From: Micromonospora sp. Llam0
GTDB lineage: Bacteria > Actinomycetota > Actinomycetes > Mycobacteriales > Micromonosporaceae
DNA: 64,000 bases
Direction: 5' to 3'
NCBI RefSeq assembly: GCF_003751085.1
Contig: NZ_RJJY01000002.1
Location: forward strand, 2,294,001 to 2,358,000
Positions 16,408 to 43,645 of the stretch are shown piece after piece. Under the pieces are notes generated by a model that was not told the origin of the DNA, did not search any database, and saw only the letters and a program-made list of their open reading frames with translations. Both the position numbers and the translations under genes were made by a program. Position 1 is the first letter of the stretch. Each line of letters opens with the position of its first letter.

Positions 16408-19400
16408 GGGAAGACCCCCGCGCGTGCGGGGACGACCCGTTGCTCGAGCCGCATCGCGAACAGCCGAGACGTGGGATCACCCGCGTACGCAGCGAGTAGT
16501 ACGCGGGCGACTACCGCGAGCGTCCGCGTCAGGGATCACCCCCGCGTGCGCGGGGAGCAGCTGCTCATGGGCGGCGGCGTTCGTTCCTTCCAGGGATCAC
16601 CCCCGCGTGCGCGGGGAGCAGACCAGCAGCGTCGGGACCGAACGCTCGAAGGCGGGATCACCCCCGCGTGCGCGGGGAGCAGCCGAGGACGGCGCGCTTC
16701 AGGTTGTCGCTGGCGGGATCACCCCCGCGTGCGCGGGGAGCAGGAGTGTGACAGACACCCGGTAGGCCTAGCAAGGGGATCACCCCCGCGTGCGCGGGGA
16801 GCAGGTGCGGGGTCTGCTGGACCGCCTGGACGCCGGGGGATCACCCCCGCGTGCGCGGGGAGCAGACGGTGACCCGGCACTCCTGGATCGGCTTGTTGGG
16901 ATCACCCCCGCGTGCGCGGGGAGCAGTGTGGCCCCGTCCCGCTGGATCCGGCTGGTCAGGGATCACCCCCGCGTGCGCGGGGAGCAGCCGACCTGCTCCT
17001 GCCCGAGCGGCGCGAAGCTGGGATCACCCCCGCGTGCGCGGGGAGCAGCTGCCGATGCCGTGGGACCAGATCGATGCCGTGGGATCACCCCCGCGTGCGC
17101 GGGGAGCAGGATACGGGCGCGTTCGCGGACGCCCGGCCCGTGGGATCACCCCCGCGTGCGCGGGGAGCAGGACCACCCGCTGGTCAAGGAGCGGCCGGAC
17201 CTGGGATCACCCCCGCGTGCGCGGGGAGCAGAGCAGGGAGATCGACTCCCACTGCTCGCGGCGGGGATCACCCCCGCGTGCGCGGGGAGCAGCGGAACAC
17301 CATCCAGCGGTGGGAGGACGGGAAGGGATCACCCCCGCGTGCGCGGGGAGCAGGACGGCGTCCGGCTGGTCGGCCACGCCGCCGCGGGATCACCCCCGCG
17401 TGCGCGGGGAGCAGAGTAGTCGACCCTGACCTGCAGTTTTTCGCCAGGGATCACCCCCGCGTGCGCGGGGAGCAGGATCGCCGCGATCGTGTCGCTGATG
17501 CGGTCGAGGGATCACCCCCGCGTGCGCGGGGAGCAGCGGCGGAACCGGTCGCGAGCAAATCCGGAACCGGGATCACCCCCGCGTGCGCGGGGAGCAGGAC
17601 CGCCTTGATACGCGGCATCCTCTGCCAGAGGGATCACCCCCGCGTGCGCGGGGAGCAGCGGCGGAACCGGTCGCGAGCAAATCCGGAACCGGGATCACCC
17701 CCGCGTGCGCGGGGAGCAGGACCGCCTTGATACGCGGCATCCTCTGCCAGAGGGATCACCCCCGCGTGCGCGGGGAGCAGGACCGCCTTGATACGCGGCA
17801 TCCTCTGCCAGAGGGATCACCCCCGCGTGCGCGGGGAGCAGACGATGGTGCCGTGGCAGGTGTCGCCGAGCTGCGGATCACCCCCGCGTGCGCGGGGAGC
17901 AGATCGGCTGCCTCGGCGAGGATGGAGAGGAGCTGGGATCACCCCCGCGTGCGCGGGGAGCAGGAGCTTTTCGCCGTCACCCCGACCGACACCCCGGGAT
18001 CACCCCCGCGTGCGCGGGGAGCAGATCGGGTCGCACAGGGTGGCCGAACGAAGCACGGGATCACCCCCGCGTGCGCGGGGAGCAGGGCGTCGAACCGTCG
18101 ATCCCGATCACCGACATGGGATCACCCCCGCGTGCGCGGGGAGCAGGCCTGCTGTTCGGCCGGGTAGCGGTGTTCGGTGGGATCACCCCCGCGTGCGCGG
18201 GGAGCAGCGGCGACCTGCCGCCACCCGTCGGCGCCGGCGGGGATCACCCCCGCGTGCGCGGGGAGCAGCGGCGCCCGTCCCGGATGTCGGCCAGCAGCCG
18301 GGGATCACCCCCGCGTGCGCGGGGAGCAGGTACACGTACAGCGTGTCGCGGTACGCGGCCGGGGATCACCCCCGCGTGCGCGGGGAGCAGGACGGCTCGA
18401 TCTTCGATCCGCCGACCGAGGTGGGATCACCCCCGCGTGCGCGGGGAGCAGGGGAGCGGGCAGTGCAGCCGGGCGTCACGCGAGGGATCACCCCCGCGTG
18501 CGCGGGGAGCAGGACTGGGTGAGGTCGGTGCAGCTGCCGATCGAGGGATCACCCCCGCGTGCGCGGGGAGCAGACGGCAAGACGAAGGTCATGCCGAGGC
18601 CATTCGGGATCACCCCCGCGTGCGCGGGGAGCAGGGTGGGCTACTGCCGGGCCGGACACCTTCGACTGGGATCACCCCCGCGTGCGCGGGGAGCAGGCGT
18701 CCTCGACCTGGGCGTCCACCTCGGCCGCGGGATCACCCCCGCGTGCGCGGGGAGCAGTACGCGAGCGTCACGGCGGTACGCGGCATCGCCGGATCACCCC
18801 CGCGTGCGCGGGGAGCAGGTGATCATCGCGACCGGCGGCGCGGCAGCAATAGGATCACCCCCGCGTGCGCGGGGAGCAGGGCCGACATTCGGTCAAGGAC
18901 AGCCTATCGACGGGATCACCCCCGCGTGCGCGGGGAGCAGAGCTGCCCCCATCGGGCGTAGGTGAGCTTGACGGGATCACCCCCGCGTGCGCGGGGAGCA
19001 GACCACCTCCGCCGCGCCGCTGGACGGCGGCGAGGGATCACCCCCGCGTGCGCGGGGAGCAGCGGGGCCAGGCGGCTCTTGGTTGGCTGGCGGTGGGATC
19101 ACCCCCGCGTGCGCGGGGAGCAGATCGCTGGGCAGGCCCGGGACGCGGTCGCCGAGGGATCACCCCCGCGTGCGCGGGGATCACCCCCGCGTGCGCGGGG
19201 AGCAGCCCACTCCCGGGCGACGGGTTCCTCCAGCAGCGGGATCACCCCCGCGTGCGCGGGGAGCAGGGCGGAGAAGGCCACCATCCGGGCCACACTCCGG
19301 GATCACCCCCGCGTGCGCGGGGAGCAGCCGCCCGCGACAACCTTCCCCAGGTACGACGGGGGATCACCCCCGCGTGCGCGGGGAGCAGGGCTACTGCACC

Positions 19401-19754
19401 GACACGCAGCTGCGCGCCCAGGGATCACCCCCGCGTGCGCGGGGAGCAGGTGGTCACCTACAGCACGGGTGGGAATTACGGGGGATCACCCCCGCGTGCG
19501 CGGGGAGCAGGCAGCTGTCCACCCGGCGCACCCGGTCCAGGTGGGATCACCCCCGCGTGCGCGGGGAGCAGGGATTGTTGCCGACGTCGATCGGCAACTG
19601 CGGGGGATCACCCCCGCGTGCGCGGGGAGCAGCGACCAGCAGTGGATCGTGCTGCCGCTGGCCTGGGATCACCCCCGCGTGCGCGGGGAGCAGCGAGTTT
19701 TCGGGCGGGTCGGGTGTCTCTCAGGGGGATCACCCCCGCGTGCGCGGGGAGCAG
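16408..19754 (-). CRISPR. CRISPR array 1, type I-E, 53 full repeats
   Basis: I count 53 canonical 29-bp repeats from 16532 to 19754, with 32-nt spacers (one 33-nt, at 18635-18667). The repeat core in crRNA sense is CTCCCCGCGCACGCGGGG followed by the 8-nt handle GTGATCCC, so the array is read on the minus strand. Two decayed repeats, at 16408-16436 and 16473-16499, mark the old trailer end on the left. The leader is at the right, beyond 19754. A truncated repeat is fused directly to a full one at 19157-19205. Spacers at 17537/17659 are identical, as are those at 17598/17720/17781. Long ORFs across the array are artefacts of the repeat. Confidence 0.97.
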
Positions 19755-19810
19755 GCTTGTTGACCTGGGGCGCTAAAGATCAACTGCAGGGTTTTTAATC
19801 ACTTTGGTTC
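19755..19810 (-). promoter_or_regulatory. CRISPR array 1 leader
   Basis: Read on the minus strand into the first repeat, this stretch contains CAAAGTGA (19799-19806), AGTTGATCT (19777-19785) and CAGGTCAA then AAGC next to the repeat. The same blocks occur at exactly the same distances (52 and 31 bases) ahead of array 2. It overlaps the stop codon of the upstream DNA methylase gene. It is the likely site for Cas1-Cas2 docking and new-spacer insertion. Confidence 0.8.
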
Positions 19811-21981
19811 GTAGGGCGGTTCTCCGAGCCGGTGTTTGTGGGCTGTGGCTCTACGGCTGGGTACAGCGTATCCTTCGACGGCTCGGCTGAGCGTTGTAGC
19901 GTCGGCCGAGGGCTGAGACCAAGGGTTCCGCTGGTTAGAGCATCGGTGATCTCGCGAGCCAGGGTGGCGCCGGTCGTTGCGGCGCGGTCGAGGGTTATGC
20001 GGAACTCGACGAGTTGGCGGAAGGCGTGTCCGTACGCTCGCTGCTGTTCCGGTGGCATGACCGGGATGGTGAGGCGCCTGATGTCGATGCGCAGGGCGCC
20101 CGTGGTGCTGGCGACTCGGCCGGCGAGGCGGACGTTGTCGGTGCGGGAAATGATGCCGGCGACGAACCATGGGTCGAACTGGGTGGTGTCGACGCGAAGC
20201 AGTTGAGTGCCCGGTCCGAGCTCGGCCTCGATCTGTTCTGGGGTGGCCACGCGAGCGTTGATTCTGTGGCCGATGATCGGGATCAGGATGTCGCCCGCAC
20301 GTATCCGAGGTCCTGAGGTGTCGGCTGTGCGGGTTGTCGTGCCGGTGGGGGCGCTACCGGACAGGATGTCGGCGGCGGTCAGGACGACGGCGTTGATGGC
20401 GGGTTGGCCGGTGCGACCGCGAGTGGTGGCGCGTAGGACTGTGATGCTGCCGGAGCGGATAAGGTCGGCGATGTCGGCCTGGGGGGCTTCGCGTAGTGGT
20501 GCCGATTGGGTTTTGCGTACTGCTGGGAGGCCGCGTCGTAGGTCGTCGAGCAGGTGATCGAAGTCGCTGATGCTGGCGATGAGCTGGGCCGGGCTGGCGG
20601 TGAGCTCCTTGGATTGCGGTAGGTAGCGTTGCGGGGTCAGATCGACTTCGGCATCGAGCATGTCGATGGCGGGTACGGCGCGGTGCATGCCGGGTTGTTC
20701 GGTGTACTGGTCGGACCGGTAAGAAGCCCAGGCGGTGCCGATGATGTCGATGAGCGGTTCCCCGGTCGTGTCGGCGGTGGTGTCGACGACGAGAACGTTC
20801 CCGGCGGGTGGCTGCTGTGGATTGGGGTGGGTGAGGACCCAGATGTGTAGTCCGATGTTCGTCGGTGCCATCAGGCCGGGGGGAAGGGCGACGACCGCGC
20901 GCAGCGCCTGGCGACGGATCAGTTCCGCGCGGACCCGTCGGCCGGCGGGCCGGGACGCGGCGGCGGGTGGCATGAGCACGACGGCGGTGCCGGTGGTGGC
21001 GAGGTGCGCCAGGGCGTGCTGTACCCAGGCGAGTTCGGGTTCGGTGCGTGGGGGTAGCCCGAAGGCCCACCGGGCGTCGTAGGCGAGGCGGTCGTGGCCC
21101 CAGTCGTGGATGCCGAACGGGAAGTTCGCCACGACCAAATCGGCGCGTAGGTCGGGCAGGGCGTCGGCGAGCATGCTGTCCCCGACGTGGACGACGGGCG
21201 GTGGCGCGTCGTGCCTGTTCCGGCGGGCGCGAAGGTGCACGAACCACAGCCGTACCAGGGTGATCAGGGCGTACTGCGGGTTGATTTCTTGTGCGTAGCA
21301 GCGGGTGATGGTGTCGTCGTGGAGTGCTCGGTCGGCGGCCATGCGCAGGATCGATCCGGTGCCGCTGGTGAAGTCGAAGATGTGGGTGCCGCGTCCGGCG
21401 AGTGTCAACATCGCCTCGGCGACGGTGTCTGGTGTGCCGGCGAGCCCGGACAGCGAGTGGGCGGAGTTGACGTACTGCCGGTGCAGGGACTCGAAGGCGG
21501 TTTCGGCGCCGTGCTCCGAGCCAAGTTCATCCACCGCGTGCAACAGTGTGGTGAGTGGGGTGGTCCACTGCGTCGGCGTGACGTCGGCGACGAGGTCGGC
21601 CAGGTGGGGATCCAGTGAACGCAGGTGTGCGACCAGCTGTTTCGGGGTGGTGGGACGGTCACCGCCGGCCCGGGTGAGCAGGTAGGCGCCGGCGATGCCG
21701 AGGACGTCGCTGATCTGTGCGGCGGGTTGGTAGGTCTCGATGTGCCGCCATGCCCGCCGGGCGGTGTCCGCCTGATGCAGTCGGCCGTGACGGCGCAGCC
21801 ATTGCTCTATCTCTGCCGCGTCGAATGTAGGGCTTGTCGGGGTGCCGCCTACGGGAGTGGGGAAGTCGGCGTAGCGGCGACGCCAGTTGCTGACGGCTGC
21901 CCTGCCGACCTTGGCCAGTTGCGCGATGCCGCTGGCCGTCAGGGTGGCCGCGCTGACGGCCGCGTTCGACTCGTTTGTCAC
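19795..21981 (-). CDS. N6-adenine DNA methylase (HsdM-like) with HTH and S-like region
   Basis: A 728-residue protein from GTG 21981. Residues about 12-65 form an excisionase/MerR-like helix-turn-helix (TASGIAQLAKVGRAAVSNWR). SAM-binding motif I is FDFTSGTGSILRMA (203-216). The catalytic motif IV reads VVANFPFG (284-290), an NFPF form of the usual NPPF/NPPY. The last 230 residues contain a specificity-subunit-like part (AGDILIPIIGHRINARVATP). So methylation and target recognition seem fused. No restriction subunit is nearby, so it is either an orphan or a host-defence modifier. It is read towards, and runs into the leader of, CRISPR array 1. Confidence 0.8.
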   Translation of the reverse strand: MTNESNAAVSAATLTASGIAQLAKVGRAAVSNWRRRYADFPTPVGGTPTSPTFDAAEIEQWLRRHGRLHQADTARRAWRHIETYQPAAQISDVLGIAGAYLLTRAGGDRPTTPKQLVAHLRSLDPHLADLVADVTPTQWTTPLTTLLHAVDELGSEHGAETAFESLHRQYVNSAHSLSGLAGTPDTVAEAMLTLAGRGTHIFDFTSGTGSILRMAADRALHDDTITRCYAQEINPQYALITLVRLWFVHLRARRNRHDAPPPVVHVGDSMLADALPDLRADLVVANFPFGIHDWGHDRLAYDARWAFGLPPRTEPELAWVQHALAHLATTGTAVVLMPPAAASRPAGRRVRAELIRRQALRAVVALPPGLMAPTNIGLHIWVLTHPNPQQPPAGNVLVVDTTADTTGEPLIDIIGTAWASYRSDQYTEQPGMHRAVPAIDMLDAEVDLTPQRYLPQSKELTASPAQLIASISDFDHLLDDLRRGLPAVRKTQSAPLREAPQADIADLIRSGSITVLRATTRGRTGQPAINAVVLTAADILSGSAPTGTTTRTADTSGPRIRAGDILIPIIGHRINARVATPEQIEAELGPGTQLLRVDTTQFDPWFVAGIISRTDNVRLAGRVASTTGALRIDIRRLTIPVMPPEQQRAYGHAFRQLVEFRITLDRAATTGATLAREITDALTSGTLGLSPRPTLQRSAEPSKDTLYPAVEPQPTNTGSENRPTNQSD

Positions 21982-22079
21982 ACGTGAACCCTAACACGGA
22001 TGATCAATTTGTGTACGCAGTTCACAGCCTGCTAACTTGCCTGGCAGTCCGCAGTGAGACGAGCCTGTTTGGAGGGACC

Positions 22080-22250: not shown

Positions 22251-22286
22251 CCCGCGTTCCATCATCCCGTCGATCGAAGGAGGACC

Positions 22287-22433
22287 ATGAGTACTTTTGT
22301 CCGCATCCACGCTGCCCACCGTTGCCTCGCCGTGCTTTCCGCCGGTCGCCTACGTCTGCGACGGGGCGGCGAGGCTCGGCCGAGGGTCCACAGCAATGCC
22401 ACCTTCTCGCGGGTACGCGCGAGTGCGCCTTGA
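22287..22433 (+). CDS. 48-residue ORF with perfect ribosome binding site
   Basis: ATG at 22287 follows AAGGAGG at ideal distance. The product begins MSTFVRIHAAHRCLAVLSAG and is Arg-rich. It overlaps the start of the HDxFGH gene in another frame and ends 38 bases inside it. It may be a leader peptide that couples translation to the downstream gene, or a small basic protein of its own. Confidence 0.45.
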   Translation: MSTFVRIHAAHRCLAVLSAGRLRLRRGGEARPRVHSNATFSRVRASAP

Positions 22434-23004
22434 CCCGGCCGTCGGTTCGGCCATCGCTGAGGCGTACGCGGCGGCGCCGGTCCGCGACGAACGGGCCTAC
22501 CCCGCGTACGCCGCGTTCTGCCAGGAGACGGTGCGGCAGTACCACTTCCTGGTGGGTCGGGTGGAGTTCGGTGGCCTGGGCGTGTCGGTGCGGATCGTCG
22601 ACGAGGACCCCTATCCGGATGTCGCGTCGATGGTCGACGACGTGCGGCGACGTCGGCTGAAGGTGTGGTCAAGCGCCGCCAGCGACAATCCGCATCCGTA
22701 TCTGAGTGACGCGGAGAACGACATGTTCCGTGCGGTGCACGACGTGTTCGGACATGCGGCGAGTGGCCGCGGCTTCGACCGCCACGGTGAGGAGGCGGCC
22801 TGGTTGAAGCACTCCGGTACGTACTCCTCGCTTGCCGGTCGGGCGATGAGCATGGAGACGCGTGGGCAGAACTGCTTCCGGATCTTCGGCAGTGGGGGTG
22901 ACCGCTTCGCGGCGCAGAAGGCGGCGCTGCTGCCGCGGGTGTTCAGCGATCCGCGTCTGGCGTGGAAGACCCTTCAGGCGACGGTGCCCGCCGCTCGCTG
23001 CTGA
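22396..23004 (+). CDS. conserved phage/actinobacterial protein with HDxFGH motif
   Basis: About 202 residues from ATG 22396, with GAGGG nine bases upstream; longer starts back to 22297 are possible. The core reads AENDMFRAVHDVFGHAASGR then GFDRHGEEAAW and MSMETRGQN. The paired His in HDVFGH plus the downstream HGEE recalls the iron-binding HDxxGH of aromatic amino-acid hydroxylases, but the similarity is local. From memory, proteins of this shape occur in actinophages and actinomycetes with no assigned function. The gene overlaps the kinase gene by 62 bases at their 3' ends. Confidence 0.6.
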   Translation: MPPSRGYARVRLDPAVGSAIAEAYAAAPVRDERAYPAYAAFCQETVRQYHFLVGRVEFGGLGVSVRIVDEDPYPDVASMVDDVRRRRLKVWSSAASDNPHPYLSDAENDMFRAVHDVFGHAASGRGFDRHGEEAAWLKHSGTYSSLAGRAMSMETRGQNCFRIFGSGGDRFAAQKAALLPRVFSDPRLAWKTLQATVPAARC

Positions 23005-24283
23005 GGCTCGCGATCTCCTGCCGCAGCTGCACCACGACCGCATGCTCCTGACCGTCGACCCGTGTCCGGCGTTCCAGCAGCAGGTTCATCTGACGCACCG
23101 CGCGGTCGGGCTCGCCGAGCGGCAGGTGAGCGCGAGCGGCACGTAGCCGGAGGTCGAACACGACCGGATCGTCGTCGCCGTGTCGTCGGGCGTGTTCGTC
23201 GGCGAGTTGCCGCCACTTCCGTGCGGCGGCGCGGTACTCGCCGGCCGCGTACAGCTGGTCGGCTCGCCTGACGCCTTGCTGCATGTCGGGCGGCCCGGGC
23301 ACGTCCGCGGGCGCGGGGCGGGAGAGGGCCTGGTGCGGCACTCGACCCACGATCGCGGCGTAGGCCTGCACCGCTTCCGCAGCGGCGGGGATGAGCACTC
23401 CCGGTAGTGGCGGCAGGTCGCGGGCATACGGTGCCAGCACGGTGTAGACATCAGCGGCCGTGGCGGGCCGGTCCTGAGGATCAACCGCCAACAGCCGGTG
23501 CACCAGTTCGTCGACCTCGGCGGGGATCTCCGGTTGCAGCTCGGCAGGACGCGGCGGGGAATTCTCCAGCTGATGCCGCACCGTGGTCACGGTCGTCTCC
23601 GCGTCGAACGGTGGTCGGCCGGTGCTGAGGTCGAACAGGGTGGCGCCCAAGCCGTAGAGGTCGGTGCGGTGGTCGGCGGGCCTGCCGAGGATCTGTTCGG
23701 GCGCCATGTAGCCCACCGTGCCCAGGCTCTGTCCGGTCTGGGTGATCCGCGAGTACCGGGCGTCGTCGCGGATCACCGCCAGACCGAAGTCGAGCACCTT
23801 GGCTGCGCCGCTCGTGTCCAGCATGACGTTGCTCGGCTTGATGTCGCGGTGGACCAGGCCGATCCGGGTCGCCGCGAGCAGCACGCTGCTGACCTGGGCT
23901 CCGATCGCGGCGACCCAACCGATCGGCAGCGGGCCCTGCTCGGCGATCAGGTCGGTGAGCGTGGTTCCGTCGATCCTCTGGAGGACGACGTACGGCTGGC
24001 CCTCGTGATCGCCGAGGTCGTGGATGGCGGGTACGCCGGGGTGATCGAGACGAGCGGTCAGGAGTGCCTCGCGGCGGAACCGGCGCACCATGTCCGGGTC
24101 GAGCGTCGCGGGGTCGACGAACTTCACGATGACCTGACGTTCGAGCAGTATGTCCCGGGCCGGCCAGACCTCGCCCATCCCCTTGTGCGCCAACGGGAAT
24201 CGGCCTAGCTCGTATCGACCTTTGACTCTCGTCCCGGGTACCACCCGCCCAGGATAGCGACCGTTTCGCCTGCGGCTGTGCAC
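22943..24283 (-). CDS. Ser/Thr protein kinase with TPR-like C-terminus
   Basis: 446 residues from GTG 24283; an inner GTG a few codons later is an alternative. The kinase domain has VIVKFVD (catalytic Lys), HRDIKPSNVML, VLDFGLAV and GTVGYMAPEQILGRPAD, all intact. No transmembrane segment or PASTA repeats follow; the C-terminal 150 residues are helical and include RRADQLYAAGEYRAAARKWR, like a tetratricopeptide unit. The kinase is therefore probably soluble. It is divergent from the helicase-cas operon, with a shared 213-base promoter region. A role in controlling that operon is possible but not shown. Confidence 0.85.
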   Translation of the reverse strand: MHSRRRNGRYPGRVVPGTRVKGRYELGRFPLAHKGMGEVWPARDILLERQVIVKFVDPATLDPDMVRRFRREALLTARLDHPGVPAIHDLGDHEGQPYVVLQRIDGTTLTDLIAEQGPLPIGWVAAIGAQVSSVLLAATRIGLVHRDIKPSNVMLDTSGAAKVLDFGLAVIRDDARYSRITQTGQSLGTVGYMAPEQILGRPADHRTDLYGLGATLFDLSTGRPPFDAETTVTTVRHQLENSPPRPAELQPEIPAEVDELVHRLLAVDPQDRPATAADVYTVLAPYARDLPPLPGVLIPAAAEAVQAYAAIVGRVPHQALSRPAPADVPGPPDMQQGVRRADQLYAAGEYRAAARKWRQLADEHARRHGDDDPVVFDLRLRAARAHLPLGEPDRAVRQMNLLLERRTRVDGQEHAVVVQLRQEIASLSSERRAPSPEGSSTPDADR

Positions 24284-24496
24284 TCGAGTAGGGTCGACCG
24301 CGTTATCTGGTGAATGAAGTTAACCGGAGATGCCTTGCAAATTAGGTTCACAAGATGCTTTGATGTTGGCCGGCGTTGACCCCGACCCGGGTGCGCCACC
24401 GCCATGCTTCGCGATCGACACGGTCAGCCGTGTCCGACGCGCGACACTTCCGACCATCAGCCCTGGCTCCGCCTGGGTTGTCGACAAGGGATGGTT
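24284..24496. promoter_or_regulatory. divergent promoter region, kinase / helicase-cas operon
   Basis: This 213-base gap lies between divergent starts. It contains the most AT-rich stretch of the neighbourhood around 24305-24370 (for example TTGCAAATTAGG at 24334-24345). Promoters for both units are expected here. I cannot assign exact -35 and -10 boxes. Confidence 0.45.
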
Positions 24497-26599
24497 ATGG
24501 CTGAGTTGGCCATCGGCCGGGACTTCCTCCCCGCCTACGCCAGGCTGCAGCGCCCGGTGCAACGCGCTGTCGAAGCCGCCATCAGCAAGTTCGCCGAACA
24601 CACCCACGCGGGCCTGCACCTGGAGAAACTGGTCGGGGCGCGGGACGACAACATCCGTACGATCCGTATCGACCAGTTCTATCGCGGCGTCGTACTCTCC
24701 CTCGGGGCCGAAAGGTACGCGCTGCTCAACGTCCTACCGCACGACGACGCGATCACGTTCGCGGTGAGCCGGCGGTTCACCGTCAATCAGGTCCTCGGCG
24801 TGCTGGAGATGCGTGACCAGGCGGGGATCGAGGAGTTCACCCGCACCACGCCGCCGCGACCCGCCGAGGAAGCGCTGTTCGGGCGCGTCTCCACCGCCGA
24901 CCTGCGGCGACTCGGCGTGGACGCCGACCTGATGCCGCTGCTGCGCGTCATCGCCACCGACCGACAGCTGGAAAGCCTTGCCGGACGGCTGCCGGAGAGT
25001 CAGCTCGACGCGCTTCGTGGCCTGGCCAGTGGACTGTCAGTCGAAGAGGTGCGGTTGGAGGTATTGAGAGAAACGCTGTCTGGTGTGGACACCGACGACC
25101 TGTTGACCGCCGCCCGCCGTACTCCCGAGCGGATCGCCTTCGTCTCCGGCCCGGTGGAACTCGCCGCGATCCTCGCCTACCCGTTCGACGTGTGGCGCAC
25201 CTTCCTGCATCCGACGCAACGCGACATCGCCTACCGCCCCACCTACAGCGGTCCCGCGTTGGTGACCGGCAGCGCCGGTACCGGGAAGACCGTGACCGGC
25301 CTGCACCGTGCGGTGTTCCTCGCCGAGCGGCTGCCCGACGGTGAGAAGGTCTTGCTGACCACGTTCACCCGGGCCCTCGCCGACGCTCTCACCCGTCAGC
25401 TGTACCGGCTCACCACCGACCCGGCGGTGCGGGCACGCATCGACGTGATCGGTGTCGACAAGCTGGCCTACGAGATCGTGGCCCGCGACAGCAGAAGACC
25501 CACTGTCGCCGACAGCGACACCATCGACCAGTTGTGCGACGCCGCGGCGAAGAACGGGCCCACCTACATCAACCGCGCGGGACACGTCGCCACCGTCAGC
25601 GCCGCGTTCCTCAAGCACGAGTGGGAACAGGTGGTGCTGGCACGCCAGCTGACCGACCTGGCCGCCTACCGCGATGCCCCACGCCGTGGCCGGGGCACGG
25701 GCCTGCGCGCCAACCAGCGCGAGCAGGTGTGGGCGGCGATCGACAGTGTGTCCCGGGAGCTGGCGAAGCGACGCCTGCGCACCCACACCCAGCTCGCTGA
25801 CGACGCCGCCGAGATCGCCCGCCGTTCCCCCGCCCCCTACCGACACGTCGTCGTCGACGAAGGCCAAGACCTGCACCCGGCGCAATGGCGGCTGCTGCGC
25901 GCCCTGGCCGCCCCCGGACCAAACGACATGTTCCTGCTCGCCGACCCGCACCAGCGCATCTACGACAGCCACGTCTCACTCGCCCAGCTCGGCATCGAGG
26001 TCCGTGGGCGAACCCGACGGCTCACCGTCAACTACCGCACCACCCACGAAATCCTCGACCTGTCAGTCAAGGTCCTCGGCGGCGACGCCACCATCGGCCT
26101 GGACGGGCAGGACGACACCCTGCGGGGCTACCGCTCCATCACCCGCGGCGGCATGCCCCAACGATCCGCCTACGACAGCCGCGACGGCGAATGCGAAGCG
26201 CTGATCGAAAGGGTCGGCACCTGGCTGGACCACGGTGTGGAGCCACACGCCATCGGCGTCGCCGTCCGCACCGGACAACTCGTCAAGAGCATCAGAAGGA
26301 TCCTCACCGAGGCGCACATCCCCGTCGCCGACGACAAGCGCGGCATCGACGGGGTGCACGTGGCCACCATGCACCGTATGAAAGGTCTCGAGTTTCAGTG
26401 CCTCGCGGTCGTCGGACTCGACGCGGGCATCCTGCCGGCACCCCACGCGCTCACCTCAGCGACCGAGGACCCCCACGCCCACCGGCAGGACCTGCAACGG
26501 GAACGCTGCCTGCTGTTCGTCGCACTCACCCGCGCCCGCGACGTGCTCTACCTGTCACACACCGGCGCACCCAGCCCACTGCTGCCGGCGCTCCAATGA
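24497..26599 (+). CDS. RelE/ParE-like domain fused to UvrD-type helicase
   Basis: 700 residues from ATG 24497, with AAGGG six bases upstream. Residues 1-100 (LAIGRDFLPAYARLQRPVQR, IDQFYRGVVL, YALLNVLPHDDAI) look like a RelE/ParE/YoeB-type toxin fold. An SF1 helicase follows: Walker A VTGSAGTGKTVTG, Walker B VVVDEGQDLHPAQW, motif V TMHRMKGLEFQ, motif VI FVALTRARDVLYL. The stop shares an ATGA overlap with cas3, so the gene heads the cas operon and is translationally coupled to it. It could unwind or process DNA after Cas3 cleavage, feed adaptation, or be a separate toxin-helicase defence module. The domain reading is firm for the helicase, moderate for the toxin-like part. Confidence 0.8.
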   Translation: MAELAIGRDFLPAYARLQRPVQRAVEAAISKFAEHTHAGLHLEKLVGARDDNIRTIRIDQFYRGVVLSLGAERYALLNVLPHDDAITFAVSRRFTVNQVLGVLEMRDQAGIEEFTRTTPPRPAEEALFGRVSTADLRRLGVDADLMPLLRVIATDRQLESLAGRLPESQLDALRGLASGLSVEEVRLEVLRETLSGVDTDDLLTAARRTPERIAFVSGPVELAAILAYPFDVWRTFLHPTQRDIAYRPTYSGPALVTGSAGTGKTVTGLHRAVFLAERLPDGEKVLLTTFTRALADALTRQLYRLTTDPAVRARIDVIGVDKLAYEIVARDSRRPTVADSDTIDQLCDAAAKNGPTYINRAGHVATVSAAFLKHEWEQVVLARQLTDLAAYRDAPRRGRGTGLRANQREQVWAAIDSVSRELAKRRLRTHTQLADDAAEIARRSPAPYRHVVVDEGQDLHPAQWRLLRALAAPGPNDMFLLADPHQRIYDSHVSLAQLGIEVRGRTRRLTVNYRTTHEILDLSVKVLGGDATIGLDGQDDTLRGYRSITRGGMPQRSAYDSRDGECEALIERVGTWLDHGVEPHAIGVAVRTGQLVKSIRRILTEAHIPVADDKRGIDGVHVATMHRMKGLEFQCLAVVGLDAGILPAPHALTSATEDPHAHRQDLQRERCLLFVALTRARDVLYLSHTGAPSPLLPALQ

Positions 26600-29439
26600 C
26601 CGGCCGCACCCACGCCGAAGCCCCCACCCTCGGCGCCGCCGCCCGCGCCGCGTGGGGCAAGACCGACCGCACCGGCACCTCACCAGTCGGGTGGCTGCCG
26701 CTGTGGCGCCACCTCGCCGACACCGCCGACGTGGCCGGACAACTCTGGGACCACTGGCTCGGCCCCGCGGTTCGTCGACGCATCGCCGACGAACTGCCCG
26801 GCGGCGACGCGGACGGCCGCACTCTGGCCGTCTGGATCGCCGGCGTGCACGACATCGGTAAGGCCACGCCCGCCTTCGCCCACCAGGCGGGCAACCTCGC
26901 TGAACGCATGCGCGACCACGGGCTCGGCTACCAGCGGGACCTGATCCGCGCCGACCGCCGGTACGCCCCCCACGCCACCGCCGGGCACATCGTGCTGGCC
27001 CACTGGCTGGACCAACAGAACTGGACCGACCCCCACCCCTTCGCCGTCATCGTCGGCGGCCACCACGGCGTGCCACCCACCGACGAGGGCCTGCGCGACG
27101 TCCAACTACGCCCCCACCTGCTCGGCGACGACGCCTGGCGGCACGTGCAACAGGAACTACTGGACTGGATGGCGCAGCGATCAGGCGTGGCCGAACGACT
27201 CGACGACTGGAGCACCGTCACGCTGTCACAACCCACGCAGGCCGTCCTCACCGGCCTCGTCATCGTCGCCGACTGGATCGCCAGCAACGAAAACCTGTTC
27301 CCCTACCTCCTGCACGACACCGACGCCCGCCGCCTGCACACCGGCTGGGACCTACTGGACCTTCCCACCCCCTGGCAGCCGGCCGCACCGCCGCCGAGCG
27401 TGGACCACCTGTTCGCGACCCGCTTCGCGCTACCCGCCGGCGCGGCACCACGCCCGGTGCAACGCACCGCCGCCGACCTGGCCGAGGTCATGCCCACTTC
27501 TGGTATGATGATCATCGAGGCGGCGATGGGGGAAGGCAAAACCGAAGCGGCCCTGGCAGCCGTGGAGATCATCGCCCGCCGGACCGGCGCATCAGGCTGC
27601 TACCTGGCGCTACCCACCCGCGCGACCAGCGACGCCATGTTCAACCGAATGCTGTCCTGGCTGCGCCGACTGCCCGACGTCCAGATCGGCCGCGGCGACC
27701 GGGACGTCCGACTCGCCCACGGCAAGGCAGCGCTCAACCCCGACTACGACCGGCTGCGCACCACCTCACTGCCCAGCGGTATCGCCCAGGACGAAGGCGG
27801 CACCGACATCGGCGTGCACACCTGGCTCGCAGGACCGAAGCGGACACTGCTGTCCAGCTTCGTCGTCGGCACCATCGACCAACTGCTGTTCGCCGCGCTG
27901 CGCAGCAAACACCTCGTGCTGCGCCACCTCGGCCTCGCCGGCAAGGTCGTCGTCATCGACGAGGCCCACGCCTACGACGTCTACATGAACCGCTTCCTCG
28001 ACCGCACCCTCGAATGGCTCGGCGCTCACGGAGTACCCGTGATCGTGCTCTCCGCGACGCTACCCGCGCACCGCCGCGCCGAGCTGATGAGAGCCTACGA
28101 CGACGGCCGCCACGGCCCCCCGCCCCCGCTGACCTGGCGCGACCGCGGCAAACCGCGAACCGACCCGTACGCCGCGCTGCGCACCGACCTGCGCTACCCC
28201 CTGATCACCGCCTCCACCCCGCAACGCGGCGCCAGCGCCACCACCTGCGCCGACTCCGGCCGAGGCCTCCAGGTAACCCTTCGGCGGCTGGACGACGACC
28301 TGCCCACACTGGCTAGTCTGCTCCGCGAGCAACTGGCCGACGGAGGCTGCGCGCTCGTGGTCCGCAACACCGTCGCCCGAGTCCAGGACACCGCAGCCGC
28401 GCTGCGCGCGGCACTCGGCCCGGACACACCGGTGTCGGTGGCGCACTCCCGCTTCATGGCCCTCGACCGCGCCGCCAAGGACCGGTGGCTCCGCGACACC
28501 TTCGGCCCACCCGGCAGCGGCGGCCGCCCCCACCGGCACGTGGTGGTGGCCAGCCAAGTCGCCGAGCAGTCCCTCGACATCGACTTCGACCTGCTCATCA
28601 CCGACCTCGCCCCCGTCGACCTGGTCCTGCAACGCATCGGCCGCCTCCACCGCCACCCGCGTGAGAACCGCCCCACCCGGCTCGCGGCACCGACCTGCTG
28701 GATCACCGGAGCCGACTGGACCACCGAGCCGCCACAACCAGTCACCGGCTCCCGTCGCGTCTACCAACTGGCGACCCTGCTGCGCAGCGCCGCCGTGCTG
28801 CTCCCGCACCTGGACGGCACACCACTGCGCCTGCCCGCCGACATCGCACCGATCACCCAAACCGCCTACGACGACGCGCCCCTCGGCCCGGCGTCCTGGC
28901 AGCCGGCCATGATCGAGGCAGAAACGAAGCAGCAAGACGAGATCGCCGCCAAGGAGATGAAAGCCGACGGCTTCCGCCTCGCCGGCGTCGCCGAGCCCGG
29001 GACACCCCTCATCGGCTGGCTCTCCGGCGGCGTCGGCAACGCCGACGACCGCGTCGCGCAAGGCCACGTCCGCGACACCGACGCCGAATCCCTCGAGGTC
29101 CTGCTCCTGGTACGCACACCGGACGGTCTCATCCTGCCGCCCTGGATCGACCACGCCAGCACCATAGTGCCGACCGACAGCCCGCCGCGCCGACCACTGC
29201 CTCGGATGATCGCGCGCTGCACCCTGCCACTGCCCCGAGCGATGACCTCCGCAGACGTGATCGACGAGGTCATCGCCGAACTGGAACACCGAAATGACCT
29301 CAGCGCCTGGCAGGACGACCCCTGGCTGGCCGGCGAGCTCGTGCTCGACATCGACACAGCCGGCCTCGCGACCGTCGCGGGCTTCGACCTGCACTACGCC
29401 CCGGATGAAGGGCTGCGCGTCACCCGCGCAGCGACCTGA
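26596..29439 (+). CDS. cas3: Cas3 nuclease-helicase, type I-E
   Basis: 947 residues from ATG 26596. The HD nuclease domain shows HLADTADVA, AGVHDIGK, HATAGHIVLAHWL and VGGHHGVPP. The SF2 helicase part has Walker A IIEAAMGEGKTEAAL, VVIDEAHAYD (DEAH box) and LSATLP, with a C-terminal RecA lobe ending in a motif VI-like QRIGRLHRH. All catalytic motifs look intact, so the protein should degrade the target strand after Cascade binding. The length is normal for fused type I-E Cas3. It overlaps the helicase gene upstream and precedes cse1 by about 30 bases. Confidence 0.96.
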   Translation: MTGRTHAEAPTLGAAARAAWGKTDRTGTSPVGWLPLWRHLADTADVAGQLWDHWLGPAVRRRIADELPGGDADGRTLAVWIAGVHDIGKATPAFAHQAGNLAERMRDHGLGYQRDLIRADRRYAPHATAGHIVLAHWLDQQNWTDPHPFAVIVGGHHGVPPTDEGLRDVQLRPHLLGDDAWRHVQQELLDWMAQRSGVAERLDDWSTVTLSQPTQAVLTGLVIVADWIASNENLFPYLLHDTDARRLHTGWDLLDLPTPWQPAAPPPSVDHLFATRFALPAGAAPRPVQRTAADLAEVMPTSGMMIIEAAMGEGKTEAALAAVEIIARRTGASGCYLALPTRATSDAMFNRMLSWLRRLPDVQIGRGDRDVRLAHGKAALNPDYDRLRTTSLPSGIAQDEGGTDIGVHTWLAGPKRTLLSSFVVGTIDQLLFAALRSKHLVLRHLGLAGKVVVIDEAHAYDVYMNRFLDRTLEWLGAHGVPVIVLSATLPAHRRAELMRAYDDGRHGPPPPLTWRDRGKPRTDPYAALRTDLRYPLITASTPQRGASATTCADSGRGLQVTLRRLDDDLPTLASLLREQLADGGCALVVRNTVARVQDTAAALRAALGPDTPVSVAHSRFMALDRAAKDRWLRDTFGPPGSGGRPHRHVVVASQVAEQSLDIDFDLLITDLAPVDLVLQRIGRLHRHPRENRPTRLAAPTCWITGADWTTEPPQPVTGSRRVYQLATLLRSAAVLLPHLDGTPLRLPADIAPITQTAYDDAPLGPASWQPAMIEAETKQQDEIAAKEMKADGFRLAGVAEPGTPLIGWLSGGVGNADDRVAQGHVRDTDAESLEVLLLVRTPDGLILPPWIDHASTIVPTDSPPRRPLPRMIARCTLPLPRAMTSADVIDEVIAELEHRNDLSAWQDDPWLAGELVLDIDTAGLATVAGFDLHYAPDEGLRVTRAAT

Positions 29440-29472
29440 GTCACTCCGACGATCAAACGAAAGGTGACGCCG

Positions 29473-31134
29473 GTGACCGGATCACCGCACACCACCGAGT
29501 ACTCCCTTATCGACGCAGCATGGATTCCAGTGTTGGATGCTGCGGGCCAGCGTCGGGACGTATCGCTGCTCGGTCTGTTCGAGCAGTCCGACGACGTACG
29601 CATGATCGCCTGCGAGCTACCGACGCAGACCTTCGCGATCCTGCGACTCGCCCTGGCGATCCTGCACCGCACCACCGGTGGCCCGCCCGGTGAAGCCGCC
29701 TGGCGTGCCCTGTGGCGCGACCGTCGGCTGCCGGTCGACGACATCGCCGACTACCTCGGCACCTTCCGCGACCGTTTCGACCTGCTGCACCCGAAGCAGC
29801 CGTTCTACCAGGTCGCGGACCTGCGCGCGGAGAAGGACAACACCTACGGGCTCGAACGCCTCATCGCCGACGTACCCAACGGCATGCCCTTCCTGACCAC
29901 CCGCGCCGGATCGGGAATGGACTCGATCACGCCCGCCGAGGCGGCCCGCTGGTTGGTGCACAGCCAGGCGTACGACCCGTCCGGCATCAAATCCGGCGCG
30001 GTCGGAGACCCACGGGCCACGGGCGGCAAGGGCTACCCGATCGGCGCCGGCTCGCTGGGCTGGCTGGGCGGTGTCCACCTTGAGGGCGCCAACCTGCGGG
30101 AAACTCTGCTGCTGAACCTGGTGCCGATCGCACCCGGGTGGCAGGTCTCCGACGAACGGGACCTGCCGGTGTGGGAACGCGAGCCACACACCGCCGCCGA
30201 GGAGGCCGACGCCGCCCGCGGCCCCTACGGTCTACTCAGCCTCTACACCTGGCAGTCCCGCCGGATCCGCCTCTTCGGCGATGCCGCTGGCATCACCGGC
30301 GCCATGATCTGCAACGGCGACCGGTTCGACTGGCAGGACCGGCACCTGCTGGAACCGATGAGCGTCTGGGGACGCAGCCAGCCCAAGGAGCGCGAACAGA
30401 AACGCACTCCGATCTACCTGCCCCGGCCACACGACCACAGCCGCGCACTGTGGCGCGGTCTGCAGACATTGCTCCCGGCACCGCCACCGCCCGGCTCAGA
30501 GCCGCCGCAGCGGTTGTCACCGATGGTGGTGCAGTGGCTGGCCAGGCTGACCGTCACCGGCGTCATCGACCCGCGGTTCCAGACCCGCACCCGCGCCACC
30601 AGCATCACCTACGGCGCCAAGCAGTCAGTGGTCGACGAGGTGTTCAGCGACGCGTTGACCATGAACGTGCTGCTGCTGGTCGAAGACTCGGCACAACGTG
30701 CGGCGGCAGTCGACGCCGCTGGCGACGCCGAAAAGGCCGTGAGGGTGCTACGCCGGCTCGCCGACAACCTGGCCCGCGCAGCCGGTAGCCGGGACACCGA
30801 CAGCGGCGACGCCGACCGGGCCGCCGAACGCGCGTACGCCCTTTTGGACCGCGCCTTCCGAGACTGGTTGGCCCGACTGGGACCCGGCAGTGATCCGGCG
30901 GCCGAGCGCGCGGCATGGCAGCGGCTGGTCCGCCGGGCCATCGCCCGCCTCGGCAGCGACCTGCTCCAAGCGGCCGGCCCGAAGGCATGGACCGGCCGGT
31001 CCGGCAAAGACCACGCCGGCAAGGAGGTGCACTACTCCAGCTCACAGGCCGAGGCGTGGTTCCGCACCGGCCTGGCCAAGGCGCTGCCGATGGCGGCCGA
31101 GTCTCCATCCCAGACGCAGGAGGAAGCAGCATGA
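29473..31134 (+). CDS. casA: Cse1/CasA large subunit of Cascade
   Basis: 553 residues from GTG 29473, which has GAAAGG about nine bases upstream; GTG 29464 is also possible. The opening YSLIDAAWIPVLDAAGQRRD, then VSLLGLFEQSD, and the internal FLTTRAGSGMDSITPAEAAR then WLVHSQAY match Cse1 of type I-E systems. It recognises the PAM and stabilises the R-loop for Cas3 recruitment (family knowledge). The stop overlaps the cse2 start (ATGA). Confidence 0.93.
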   Translation: MTGSPHTTEYSLIDAAWIPVLDAAGQRRDVSLLGLFEQSDDVRMIACELPTQTFAILRLALAILHRTTGGPPGEAAWRALWRDRRLPVDDIADYLGTFRDRFDLLHPKQPFYQVADLRAEKDNTYGLERLIADVPNGMPFLTTRAGSGMDSITPAEAARWLVHSQAYDPSGIKSGAVGDPRATGGKGYPIGAGSLGWLGGVHLEGANLRETLLLNLVPIAPGWQVSDERDLPVWEREPHTAAEEADAARGPYGLLSLYTWQSRRIRLFGDAAGITGAMICNGDRFDWQDRHLLEPMSVWGRSQPKEREQKRTPIYLPRPHDHSRALWRGLQTLLPAPPPPGSEPPQRLSPMVVQWLARLTVTGVIDPRFQTRTRATSITYGAKQSVVDEVFSDALTMNVLLLVEDSAQRAAAVDAAGDAEKAVRVLRRLADNLARAAGSRDTDSGDADRAAERAYALLDRAFRDWLARLGPGSDPAAERAAWQRLVRRAIARLGSDLLQAAGPKAWTGRSGKDHAGKEVHYSSSQAEAWFRTGLAKALPMAAESPSQTQEEAA

Positions 31135-31802
31135 CGGTAGTGGAAACCGACCCATCGACGGCCACACGAAGGACGTGGTCCCGGCGCCGCAAGGACCTCG
31201 GCGATCACGTCGCCCGGACAGTCGGCACCCTTCAGGTCCGGGTGCTGAACACCCCACCCCAGCCCGAGGCAATCAGCGCCCTGGCCCGGCTACGGCGCGG
31301 TATCGGCCGAGACCCAGGCTTCGACTTCACCCTGGAGCGCTACCTGCAGATCCCCGACGACCTGTTGGGCCACCGGCCCGCCGACGACGCCGAAGCGAGT
31401 GACGCCGAGCACGCCGTACACGACGCGGTGACCCTGTACGCGCTCCACCAGCAGTCCCGTCGGGAACGGATGCACGCCGACGGGCGAGGCCTGGGACAGG
31501 CACTTGCCGAACTGGTCCGCAGGTCCGCCGGACCCGAAGGAGTACGCCGCCGCTTCGCCGCCCTCGGCACCGCCAGCACCTACCACGAGAGCATCTACCA
31601 CCTGCGCAGCCTGATCACGATGCTGCGCGAACACCAGATCCCACTCGACTACGGCCTGCTCGCCGACGACCTCAAAACCCTTCGCGGCCCCGCCGGCTGC
31701 CCCACGGTCCAGGCCATCTGGGGCCGGGAGTTCTTCCGCACCCGACCCAGCGCAGACCCCGACGCCCCCGCCAGCGAATCTCCCGAGGAGGACCCATCAT
31801 GA
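31131..31802 (+). CDS. casB: Cse2/CasB small subunit of Cascade
   Basis: 223 residues, ATG at 31131 overlapping the cse1 stop. The protein is helical, with LARLRRGIGRDPG near residue 47 and YHLRSLITMLREHQIPLDYG then LLADDL near the end, both typical of Cse2. It dimerises along the Cascade backbone and holds the non-target strand (family knowledge). The C-terminal 20 residues are acidic and Pro-rich. Overlaps cas7 by four bases. Confidence 0.92.
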   Translation: MTVVETDPSTATRRTWSRRRKDLGDHVARTVGTLQVRVLNTPPQPEAISALARLRRGIGRDPGFDFTLERYLQIPDDLLGHRPADDAEASDAEHAVHDAVTLYALHQQSRRERMHADGRGLGQALAELVRRSAGPEGVRRRFAALGTASTYHESIYHLRSLITMLREHQIPLDYGLLADDLKTLRGPAGCPTVQAIWGREFFRTRPSADPDAPASESPEEDPS

Positions 31803-32923
31803 GCCGCACCATCATCGACGTGTACGCCCTGCAGACCGTACCCCCGAGCAACCTCAACCGCGACGACACCGGTTCGCCGAAAACCGCCGTCTACGGCGGC
31901 GTACGCCGCGCCCGAGTGTCCAGCCAGGCGTGGAAGCGCGCCATCCGGCTCGCGTTCGCCGACCTGCTCGACCGCTCACAGCTCGGCGAACGCACCAAGC
32001 GTGTCGGTGAATCCCTCGCCGCGCGGATCCGTGCCCTCGACCCGAGCCTGTCCGCGGAGGCCGCGTCCGCGTTGGCCACCGACACCTTCGTGGCCGCCGG
32101 CCTCGCCAAGGTCGACAAGAAGAAGGGCGAGCTCAAGGACGTCGAATCCGGCTACCTGCTGTTCCTGAGCCACCGGCAACTGGACAACCTCGCCGCCGCC
32201 GCGCTGGAAGCCTCGCGAACTGGTACCGCCCTCGACAAGGCCCGGTTCAAGAAGCTGGCCGCCGCCGAGCATTCCGTCGACATCGCGATGTTCGGTCGGA
32301 TGGTGGCCGACATGACCGACATCAACGTCGACGCGGCCTGCCAGGTATCCCACGCCATCAGCGTCCACGCCGTCGACAACGAATTCGACTACTTCACCGC
32401 AGTCGACGACCGCAAGGCCGACGCCGCCGAAACCGGCGCCGGCATGATCGGCACCATCGAGTTCAACTCCTCCACCCTGTACCGCTACGCCACCATCGAC
32501 GTTGACGCACTCCACCGCACCCTCGGCGACGCCACGGCCACCCGAGCCGCCGTCGAAGCGTTCCTCACCGCGTTCGCCCGCAGCATGCCCACCGGCAAGC
32601 AGAACACCTTCGCCCACCGCACGCTGCCCGACGCCGTACTGGTGCGGCTGCGCGACACCCAGCCGATCAACCTCGTCGGCGCCTTCGAAACACCCATCCG
32701 CGAGACGAACACCGCCGGGCGGATCGCACTGGCCGCCGAAGCGCTGGCGAAGCACACCACCGACGTCGAGAACGCCTACGGGGAAAGGCCAACAGGCAGC
32801 TGGGTCACCCAGGTCGGAGAGAAGACCGCGGTCCTCGCCGACCTCGGCAAGGCAGTCAGCTTCACCGAACTGGTCACCAGCGTGGGAGAGCAGGTCACAA
32901 CGGCGCTCGGCCAGCCAGCATGA
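31799..32923 (+). CDS. cas7: Cas7 (Cse4/CasC) backbone subunit
   Basis: 374 residues from ATG 31799. The start IDVYALQTVPPSNLNRDDTG and the block RARVSSQAWKRAIR are hallmarks of Cse4. KADAAETGAGMIGTIEFNSS then TLYRYATID and FAHRTLPDAVLVRL follow in the usual order. It forms the six-fold filament that carries the crRNA spacer. Length and order are normal for type I-E. Confidence 0.95.
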   Translation: MSRTIIDVYALQTVPPSNLNRDDTGSPKTAVYGGVRRARVSSQAWKRAIRLAFADLLDRSQLGERTKRVGESLAARIRALDPSLSAEAASALATDTFVAAGLAKVDKKKGELKDVESGYLLFLSHRQLDNLAAAALEASRTGTALDKARFKKLAAAEHSVDIAMFGRMVADMTDINVDAACQVSHAISVHAVDNEFDYFTAVDDRKADAAETGAGMIGTIEFNSSTLYRYATIDVDALHRTLGDATATRAAVEAFLTAFARSMPTGKQNTFAHRTLPDAVLVRLRDTQPINLVGAFETPIRETNTAGRIALAAEALAKHTTDVENAYGERPTGSWVTQVGEKTAVLADLGKAVSFTELVTSVGEQVTTALGQPA

Positions 32924-32984: not shown

Positions 32985-33686
32985 ATGAGCGTCCTGCTGC
33001 TGAAACTTGCCGGCCCCCTGCAGTCCTGGGGCTCATCCAGCCGCTTCGCCCGCCGAGGCACCGAGATCGCACCCACCAAGAGCGGAGTGATCGGCCTCCT
33101 CGCCGCGGCCAAGGGCATCCGACGCACCGAACCACTCACCGAACTACTCGGCCTGCAATTCGGCGTACGGCTCGACCAGCCCGGACAGATCCTGCGCGAC
33201 TTCCAAACCGCCCGGTCCCTCAACGGCGAACGCAGCGCCCCACTGACCTACCGCTTCTCCCTCTCCGACGCCACCTTCCTCGCCGCCGTCAACGGCGAAC
33301 AGGAACTGCTCGACGGCCTGGCCGAAGCACTGGACCGGCCACGGTTCCCCCTCTACCTCGGCCGGCGCTCATGCCCACCAACCGGACCGATCAACCTCGG
33401 CGTACACGACTCCACCCTCGACGACGCACTCACACAATGGCCGTGGCTCGCACCCACGTGGTACCGCGAAAAGGCGGCCCGCACCGTCCGGTTGGAAATC
33501 ATCCGCGACGCCCGCCCGGGTGAACCCGTCACCGAGACCGTGCCCGACGAGCCGATCAGCTTCGACCCCGCCCATCGGCAGCACACCTGGCGATCCGTGC
33601 TGCGTCAGCACGTCGACATCACCAACGACCTCGCTGAACGGGCCGCTGTCACCGAACACGACCCGCTGAGCCTGCTGGGAGGCTGA
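32985..33686 (+). CDS. cas5: Cas5e (CasD) subunit of Cascade
   Basis: 233 residues from ATG 32985. It begins MSVLLLKLAGPLQSWGSSSR, the Cas5 opening with QSWG. KSGVIGLLAAAKGIRR and FPLYLGRRSCPPTGPI match the conserved core and end of Cas5e. It should cap the 5' handle of the crRNA (GTGATCCC here). Unlike the other cas genes it does not overlap its upstream neighbour: 61 bases separate it from cas7, with GGGGTGA ahead of the start. Confidence 0.93.
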   Translation: MSVLLLKLAGPLQSWGSSSRFARRGTEIAPTKSGVIGLLAAAKGIRRTEPLTELLGLQFGVRLDQPGQILRDFQTARSLNGERSAPLTYRFSLSDATFLAAVNGEQELLDGLAEALDRPRFPLYLGRRSCPPTGPINLGVHDSTLDDALTQWPWLAPTWYREKAARTVRLEIIRDARPGEPVTETVPDEPISFDPAHRQHTWRSVLRQHVDITNDLAERAAVTEHDPLSLLGG

Positions 33687-35328: not shown

Positions 35329-35738
35329 TGACCGTCATCATCCTCACCGCATGCCCGGAAGGACTACGCGGCCACCTCACCCAGTGGCTCCTCGAGATCT
35401 CCGCCGGCGTCTACGTCGGCCACGTCAACAGCCGAATCCGGCACCGACTCTGGACCAAGGTCATCGAGATGGCCGGACCAGGACGGGCACTGCTCGTCTA
35501 CCAAAAGCCAAGCGAACAGCGGCTCAGCTTCGACGTGCACGACCACCACTGGAACCCAGTCGACTTCGACGGCATCACCCTGATACGCCGACCCACCGAG
35601 CGGAAGACCCACAACCCCGCCCTAGCTCAGGGATGGAGCAAAGCCTCAAAGCGCCGACGCTTCGGACGACGCGGCGCGGGACGCGGGGACCTCTCGGGCG
35701 GCAGCCCAAAACAAAGTGAACAAAATCGGGAAAGTTGA
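35328..35738 (+). CDS. cas2: Cas2, type I-E, with long C-terminal tail
   Basis: 136 residues from ATG 35328 (TGATG junction with cas1). MTVIILTACPEGLRGHLTQW then LLEISAGVYVGHVNSRIR is diagnostic for type I-E Cas2. The core ends near residue 90 (GITLIRRPTE). A further 45 residues, basic and Gly/Ser-rich, have no counterpart in short Cas2 proteins that I know, and their codons overlap the array 2 leader. The tail may be functional or simply read-through of leader sequence. Confidence 0.93.
   Translation: MTVIILTACPEGLRGHLTQWLLEISAGVYVGHVNSRIRHRLWTKVIEMAGPGRALLVYQKPSEQRLSFDVHDHHWNPVDFDGITLIRRPTERKTHNPALAQGWSKASKRRRFGRRGAGRGDLSGGSPKQSEQNRES

Positions 35739-42685: not shown

Positions 42686-43645
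<960 letters not shown>

Follow-up and report, generated by a model that had tools for sequence, protein, structure and literature searches.

A RelE-UvrD helicase gene of the ArmD family heads a type I-E cas operon in Micromonosporaceae

The stretch of Micromonospora sp. Llam0 DNA analysed here (64,000 nucleotides; hereafter the window) carries a type I-E CRISPR-cas operon whose first gene, directly before cas3, encodes a RelE-fold domain fused to a UvrD-type helicase, an architecture that places the protein in the ArmD family of antiphage proteins. Comparative genomics supports a single recruitment of this gene, its operon position, its overlap with cas3 and purifying selection on both of its domains. 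That the gene came from the antiphage gene pool and has become a member of the cas operon is very probable on these comparisons. The explanation we favour, with roughly even confidence, goes further: an ArmD-type helicase was recruited once into a Micromonosporaceae type I-E lineage and works with the CRISPR effector stage. The constant place of the helicase at the head of this type I-E operon leads us to suggest that a motor of innate immunity may now be working with RNA-guided immunity.

Results

Distribution of the helicase and its linkage to cas3

We surveyed 354 Micromonosporaceae genomes for the helicase and for cas3. Relatives of the helicase at E <= 1e-80 are present in 142 genomes and close copies (at least 63% identity) in 31, in one of them (G294) in two pieces. 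A cas3 of at least 68% identity is found in 30 genomes, again in two pieces in one (G147). Both genes occur together in 29 genomes and share a contig in 28, and by coordinates the helicase gene lies directly before cas3 in all 28; in the 29th (G181) each gene sits at a contig end and the helicase copy cannot be placed. The two remaining close copies adjoin cas operons without a working cas3: in G311 (locus L042), a degraded cas locus, cas3, cas1 and cas2 were not found in the stretch examined, and in G085 (L043) the helicase is frameshifted, cas3 is 29% covered and cas1-cas2 were not found in the stretch examined. Conversely, G265 (L044) has, in the stretch examined, a cas3 without helicase or Cascade, and zero repeat matches genome-wide; the cas loci of all three exceptions are degraded. 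We refer to the type I-E lineage carrying the cas-linked helicase as clade A.

The same division is seen among 29 loci from named genomes. Eighteen encode a helicase of at least 64% identity, 17 of them with an adjacent cas3 and the other (L010) on a 3 kb contig; the remaining 11 fall below 60% identity and have no cas gene of this kind. The helicase is absent from all 18 type I-E loci examined in sister cas3 lineages (50-61% identity, 18 genomes) as far as the examined stretches reach, 3 contigs extending less than 1.5 kb beyond cas3; the view that cas3 is not usually preceded by a further gene is thereby borne out. Outside Micromonosporaceae, in 397 genomes drawn from the order and searched for relatives at E <= 1e-90, cas3 adjoins a helicase relative in 0 of 31 genomes, the nearest being 29 kb away (G654). 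None of 25 phage records covers 80% of the helicase protein. The original prediction held that homologues lying mostly away from cas operons would count against it. This is true of the wider family, as only 31 of the 142 genomes with a relative hold the close kind, but wherever an intact locus allowed a judgement, the close kind stands next to cas3.

Operon structure and gene overlap

The operon runs helicase, cas3, cse1, cse2, cas7, cas5, cas6e, cas1, cas2, with arrays on both sides (Table 1). Its type I-E assignment follows from Cse1, Cas7, Cas6e, a Cas3 with HD and helicase domains, and the array. The gene order from cas3 onwards is that of other type I-E systems, to which a conserved ninth gene is here added in first place. 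The stop codon of the helicase gene overlaps the cas3 start as ATGA, and an in-frame cas3 start overlaps the helicase stop in 25 of 28 loci, a count in which the first part of the broken L045 cas3 was not assessed. Four of the 25 have a second start 6 bases on. In the non-overlapping loci, cas3 starts 10 bases on (L104) or 19 or 25 bases on (L108). The originally proposed coupling of the gene to cas3 is real, and it is old. The window's cas3 has its full length and retains the HD, GKT and DEAH motifs, so that the proposal of a helicase taking over from Cas3 is not supported, and substitution for a dead Cas3 was rejected since cas3 looks intact. A promoter scan of the 213 bases between the kinase and helicase genes gave no match to the sigma-70 consensus.

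Table 1. Coordinates of the helicase gene, the cas operon and neighbouring features in the window
Feature	Position	Strand	Remarks
RelE-UvrD (ArmD-family) helicase gene	24497..26599	+	700 residues; first in cas operon; sequence and comparative analysis
RelE-fold N-terminal domain	24497..24787	+	residues 1-97; AlphaFold2 model, PDB matches, dN/dS
Helical linker	24788..25201	+	residues 98-235; lowest conservation in protein
SF1A UvrD-like helicase core	25202..26596	+	residues 236-700
ATGA, helicase stop overlapping cas3 start	26596..26599	+	overlapping in-frame start in 25/28 loci
cas3 (HD nuclease-helicase)	26596..29439	+	apparently intact
cse1/cas8e	29464..31134	+	
cse2/cas11	31131..31802	+	named by position and conservation
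cas7 (Cse4)	31799..32923	+	
cas5	32985..33686	+	named by position and conservation
cas6e (Cse3)	33689..34363	+	
cas1	34360..35328	+	named by position and conservation
cas2	35328..35738	+	136 residues; named by position and conservation
CRISPR array following cas2	35764..44114	+	123 repeat matches, <=4 mismatches
Intergenic space between kinase and helicase genes	24284..24496	.	213 bases; presumed divergent promoter region; scan
Ser/Thr protein kinase	22943..24283	-	divergent from helicase gene; conserved neighbour
pah	22297..23004	+	conserved neighbour; phrog_3170
N6 DNA methyltransferase (type I MTase-like)	19795..21981	-	conserved neighbour, also away from cas genes
CRISPR array beyond methyltransferase gene	16533..19754	-	53 repeat matches

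The helicase protein

An AlphaFold2 model and PDB matches give the N-terminal domain a RelE fold, and a complete UvrD-type helicase follows in the same protein; the predicted fusion of a toxin-fold-like N-terminus to a helicase therefore stands. By sequence, the N-terminus matched only RelE3 (3bpq; E 0.42, weak) and one unrelated synthetic helix in the PDB. Residues R54, R57, R63 and H82 of the RelE-fold domain are kept in at least 29 of the 31 copies, and, going by the RelE motif rather than by a residue-level superposition, we take H82 to occupy the position of RelE's catalytic arginine. No antitoxin gene was found next to the helicase gene, whose neighbours are the divergent kinase and cas3. 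The best PADLOC matches of the protein are GajB models, which among those listed match best over residues 250-690, outside the RelE domain. A host UvrD/PcrA/Rep identity was ruled out, the PcrA score being 76.7 bits against an equivalog cut-off of 911.2.

The protein belongs to the ArmD (RelE-UvrD) family, with a RelE-fold domain and a GajB/UvrD-like superfamily 1 (SF1) helicase, features shared with ArmD of ARMADA type II. An ArmD homologue on an E. coli plasmid shows 35% identity over 99% of the length (712 columns, E 2e-120), with 38% over 108 positions in the N-terminus (E 3e-20). In this plasmid protein K266 and D454 carry the numbers given in the ARMADA study, equivalent here to K264 and D454, and its gene follows a DruE/YprA-like gene with a 4-base overlap; by these residues and this gene order, rather than by that strain's record, we assign it to the ArmD kind of NCTC 12900. 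In ARMADA type II of E. coli NCTC 12900, deletion of ArmD or a K266A change abolished protection and D454N weakened it; all four genes were required, cells stayed viable after infection, and the tested system was non-abortive; the RelE part was not among the mutations in the section on anti-phage activity (preprint PMC12458937).

Several differences separate the present gene from known systems. Where the ArmD homologue gene overlaps that of an ArmC-like superfamily 2 (SF2) helicase by 4 bases, the overlap here is with cas3, and unlike in ARMADA type II the gene stands at the head of a type I-E operon, before cas3, with no ArmA, ArmB or ArmC gene in the window. Queries of ArmA, ArmB, ArmC and OLD type gave no match in the 64 kb (tblastn, E <= 1e-8); thus the UvrD-like helicase shared with GajB of Gabija lacks a GajA-type OLD-TOPRIM nuclease match in the window. 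Cami1 is a CARF-RelE effector of type III CRISPR and is not known to have a helicase; conversely, no CARF domain was found in the helicase protein. An occasional UvrD helicase lies beside the CRISPR effector at Cas12a2 loci (type V), with TPR and DUF3800 proteins, and the text describing it mentions no RelE fusion (PMC10910872). The I-E2, I-E3 and I-E5 variants of the 2025 classification carry other additions (PMC12669027).

Relatives away from cas genes

Of 36 loci of relatives away from cas genes, 28 lie near defence-type genes and 8 near none, defence-type meaning ArmA-, ArmB-, ArmC-, GmrSD-, OLD-, HsdM-, kinase-, methyltransferase- or similar genes in the fetched flank, named after the PADLOC and Pfam matches of a single representative of each. 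This count is partly one of construction, because eight queries came from six of the same loci, and the kinase share of it is weak, because kinases are common in such genomes. The sampled relatives were found in ARMADA-like, DISARM-like and Gabija-like loci. At L026, L027 and L037 (Streptomyces and Spirillospora) an OLD-TOPRIM nuclease gene comes directly after a RelE-UvrD helicase gene, and HsdM is encoded divergently nearby, a Gabija-like arrangement. The closest non-cas relatives (L025, L047, L048, L050, L051 and L052) stand beside an ArmA/ArmB-like pair with no ArmC in the fetched stretch, and two of these six (L048, L051) also have a GmrSD-type nuclease; such a pair with a RelE-UvrD helicase and no ArmC is possibly a further defence variant. 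ARMADA-like clusters at L093-L094 and L097-L098 carry in addition a methyltransferase and two Ser/Thr kinases, and L065 holds a methyltransferase, a kinase, a 1761-residue protein and a RelE-UvrD helicase on one strand. The genome of the window itself has an ARMADA type II-like set of ArmA-, ArmB-, ArmC- and ArmD-like genes (G000 C2:2219827-2245900; L070, L095) about 97 kb from the CRISPR locus, and its ArmD-like protein is a 40% paralogue.

Descent and selection

On a tree of 68 chosen helicase proteins (30 cas-linked, L054 being left out, and 38 others), the 30 cas-linked copies form one side of a single branch, requiring one change (Shimodaira-Hasegawa-like approximate likelihood ratio test, SH-aLRT, 100). 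The nearest outsider is L025, from Catellatospora, beside ArmA- and ArmB-like genes. On a tree of 47 Cas3 proteins, helicase presence requires two changes, which we read as one gain and a loss in the degraded L044. The first branches on both trees, which were quick and without bootstrap, are L108, then L024 with L107.

Median ratios of nonsynonymous to synonymous substitution rates (dN/dS) are 0.253 for the helicase (26 of the 31 copies; L010, L042, L043, L045 and L054 left out), 0.232 for cas3, 0.335 for the methyltransferase (18 loci) and 0.376 for the kinase (24 loci). Inside the helicase gene they are 0.203 for the RelE part, 0.358 for the linker and 0.235 for the helicase part, and the value of 0.203 indicates that the RelE part is also under selection. 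Pairwise distances of the helicase correlate with those of cas3 at 0.916, compared with 0.926 for cse1, 0.515 for cas1, 0.579 for cas2, 0.951 for the methyltransferase (18 loci) and 0.935 for the kinase (24 loci). Beyond the conserved neighbours the flanks are unrelated: among 44 genes from 15 of 20 loci, zero were shared in any locus pair (105 informative of 190 pairs). Chance juxtaposition or hitch-hiking of chromosomal neighbours was rejected since none of these 44 flanking genes is shared.

Altered helicases occur at 2 of the 3 loci whose cas3 is lost or broken vs 2 of 27 where it is whole (Fisher p 0.039), and at 3 of the 5 loci lacking complete cas1-cas2 in the examined stretch vs 1 of 25 that have cas1 (Fisher p 0.009). 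The tests were made post hoc, on loci that are few and related, and a working cas3 is missing as well from 3 of the 5; decay of the helicase alongside cas genes is suggestive only.

The methyltransferase-pah-kinase block

The methyltransferase, pah and kinase genes (19795-24283) sit between both arrays and are co-inherited with the cas operon across genera; the 3' end of pah runs about 60 bases into the end of the convergent kinase gene. Every clade-A locus whose flank reaches far enough has all three. Outside clade-A loci there are nine orthologues of the methyltransferase (64-77% identity) and a tenth (G181) alone on its contig. None of the nine has a clade-A helicase beside it, which indicates that the helicase tracks cas3 rather than the block, co-inherited as the latter is. 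Seven are free of cas genes to a distance of about 20 kb (L089 with 11 repeats, L087 with one) and two (L082, L083) adjoin a different type I operon. The block is thus a separable neighbour of the helicase-cas operon, and membership of the helicase in a methyltransferase-kinase block was rejected on its absence at all nine occurrences elsewhere.

The block is found whole or in part away from cas genes at L084-L090, and several outside orthologue loci lack the kinase or have only part of it. At L089 the methyltransferase and pah orthologues lie near repeats of the same type as the window's, and at L086 the methyltransferase adjoins an ARMADA-type ArmC gene and a 35% helicase relative.

Discussion

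In the explanation we favour, an ancestral type I-E lineage recruited an ArmD-family gene once and kept it first and overlapping cas3. The helicase would then be made in step with Cas3 and Cascade as an accessory motor. Once Cascade-Cas3 had opened and nicked a target, it could load on the single-stranded product and extend the unwinding or strip bound proteins, which might make destruction or inactivation of the target more complete. The RelE-fold domain may dock the helicase to nucleic acid or to a ribosome-associated target transcript.

Several observations weigh against this explanation. Motor activity is predicted from sequence and cannot be assumed, because the study of GajB, a relative of the helicase part, found neither unwinding nor ATPase activity nor DNA binding (PMC10681800). 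Since the block is co-inherited as tightly (0.951 and 0.935), the working unit could be larger than the helicase and the cas operon. Type I-E lineages outside clade A do without the gene. At L018 residues of the RelE domain are changed (G39R, R57P, R63Q) next to an intact cas3 and Cascade, and at L054 a frameshifted helicase stands beside intact cas genes; both loci speak against a strict need for the helicase. Moreover, all of the support is comparative and drawn from sequences.

Alternatively, the helicase may be an autonomous antiphage gene of ArmD or GajB kind, a co-regulated second layer of immunity with no contact to Cascade or Cas3. Its relatives serve in, or lie beside, innate systems, and we count in favour of this view the need for all four ARMADA genes in E. 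coli (PMC12458937). However, although that relative needs partners, no ArmA-, ArmB-, ArmC- or OLD-type match lies in the window, and every close copy but the unplaceable one stands at cas3 or beside a cas operon without a working cas3, so we regard autonomy as possible but rather unlikely. In a further alternative, the helicase would form a defence module together with the divergent methyltransferase and kinase, the CRISPR operon being a mere neighbour. The constancy of the three flanking genes and a co-inheritance with cas3 as tight as the helicase's fit such a module, as do other ArmD-family loci with nearby kinases (8 of 36) or related methyltransferases (4 of 36). Against it stand the nine methyltransferases without a clade-A helicase and two loci: at L108 the methyltransferase and pah lie beyond the array with the helicase still next to cas3, and L044 has lost the helicase but kept the block. 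The block is also divergent from a gene that overlaps cas3, and we consider this arrangement unlikely.

Supply or trimming of DNA fragments for Cas1-Cas2 in primed adaptation appears improbable. The excess of altered helicases where cas1-cas2 are incomplete (L045 retains a cas2 remnant) would suit it, within the limits of that post hoc test, but 3 of the 5 loci have a lost or broken cas3 as well. Yet the helicase is intact at L013 and L045, where cas1-cas2 are missing or broken in the examined stretch and could lie elsewhere, which was not searched; L013 keeps helicase, cas3 and Cascade and has 97 repeats elsewhere, where its cas1-cas2 may be. The helicase is, moreover, coupled to cas3 and not to cas1. 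Least credible of all is an abortive toxin, in which the RelE domain would halt translation or kill the cell once CRISPR is defeated: an antitoxin gene is lacking next to the helicase gene, a conserved histidine (H82) presumably replaces RelE's catalytic arginine, and the tested ARMADA was described as non-abortive (PMC12458937).

Recruitment to the effector stage could also have produced a hybrid, in which the ArmD motor exchanged ArmC for Cas3-Cascade and is aimed by CRISPR RNA, the co-inherited methyltransferase and kinase between the arrays giving self-marking or signalling. We hold this elaboration to be fairly unlikely.

Among the matches listed in the open-access literature, most subscription journals aside, we found no report of this association of helicase and type I-E. 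In one CRISPR survey UvrD appears with Cas12a2 loci and in a figure key (PMC10910872), and the text consulted in another, searched for other words, mentions no such gene (PMC12669027); the supplements of either may list it.

The system would allow a clean genetic test of ArmD-type function, whose mechanism the anti-phage section of the ARMADA preprint leaves open (PMC12458937), and would offer a natural experiment on what limits Cas3. The hosts are soil bacteria, and helicases of this kind are otherwise seen in non-CRISPR antiphage systems. Type I-E, the model CRISPR system, is generally regarded as requiring no more than Cascade, Cas3 and host factors. A conserved helicase of innate-defence origin, strictly coupled to cas3, would demonstrate that modules of innate and adaptive immunity are able to fuse.
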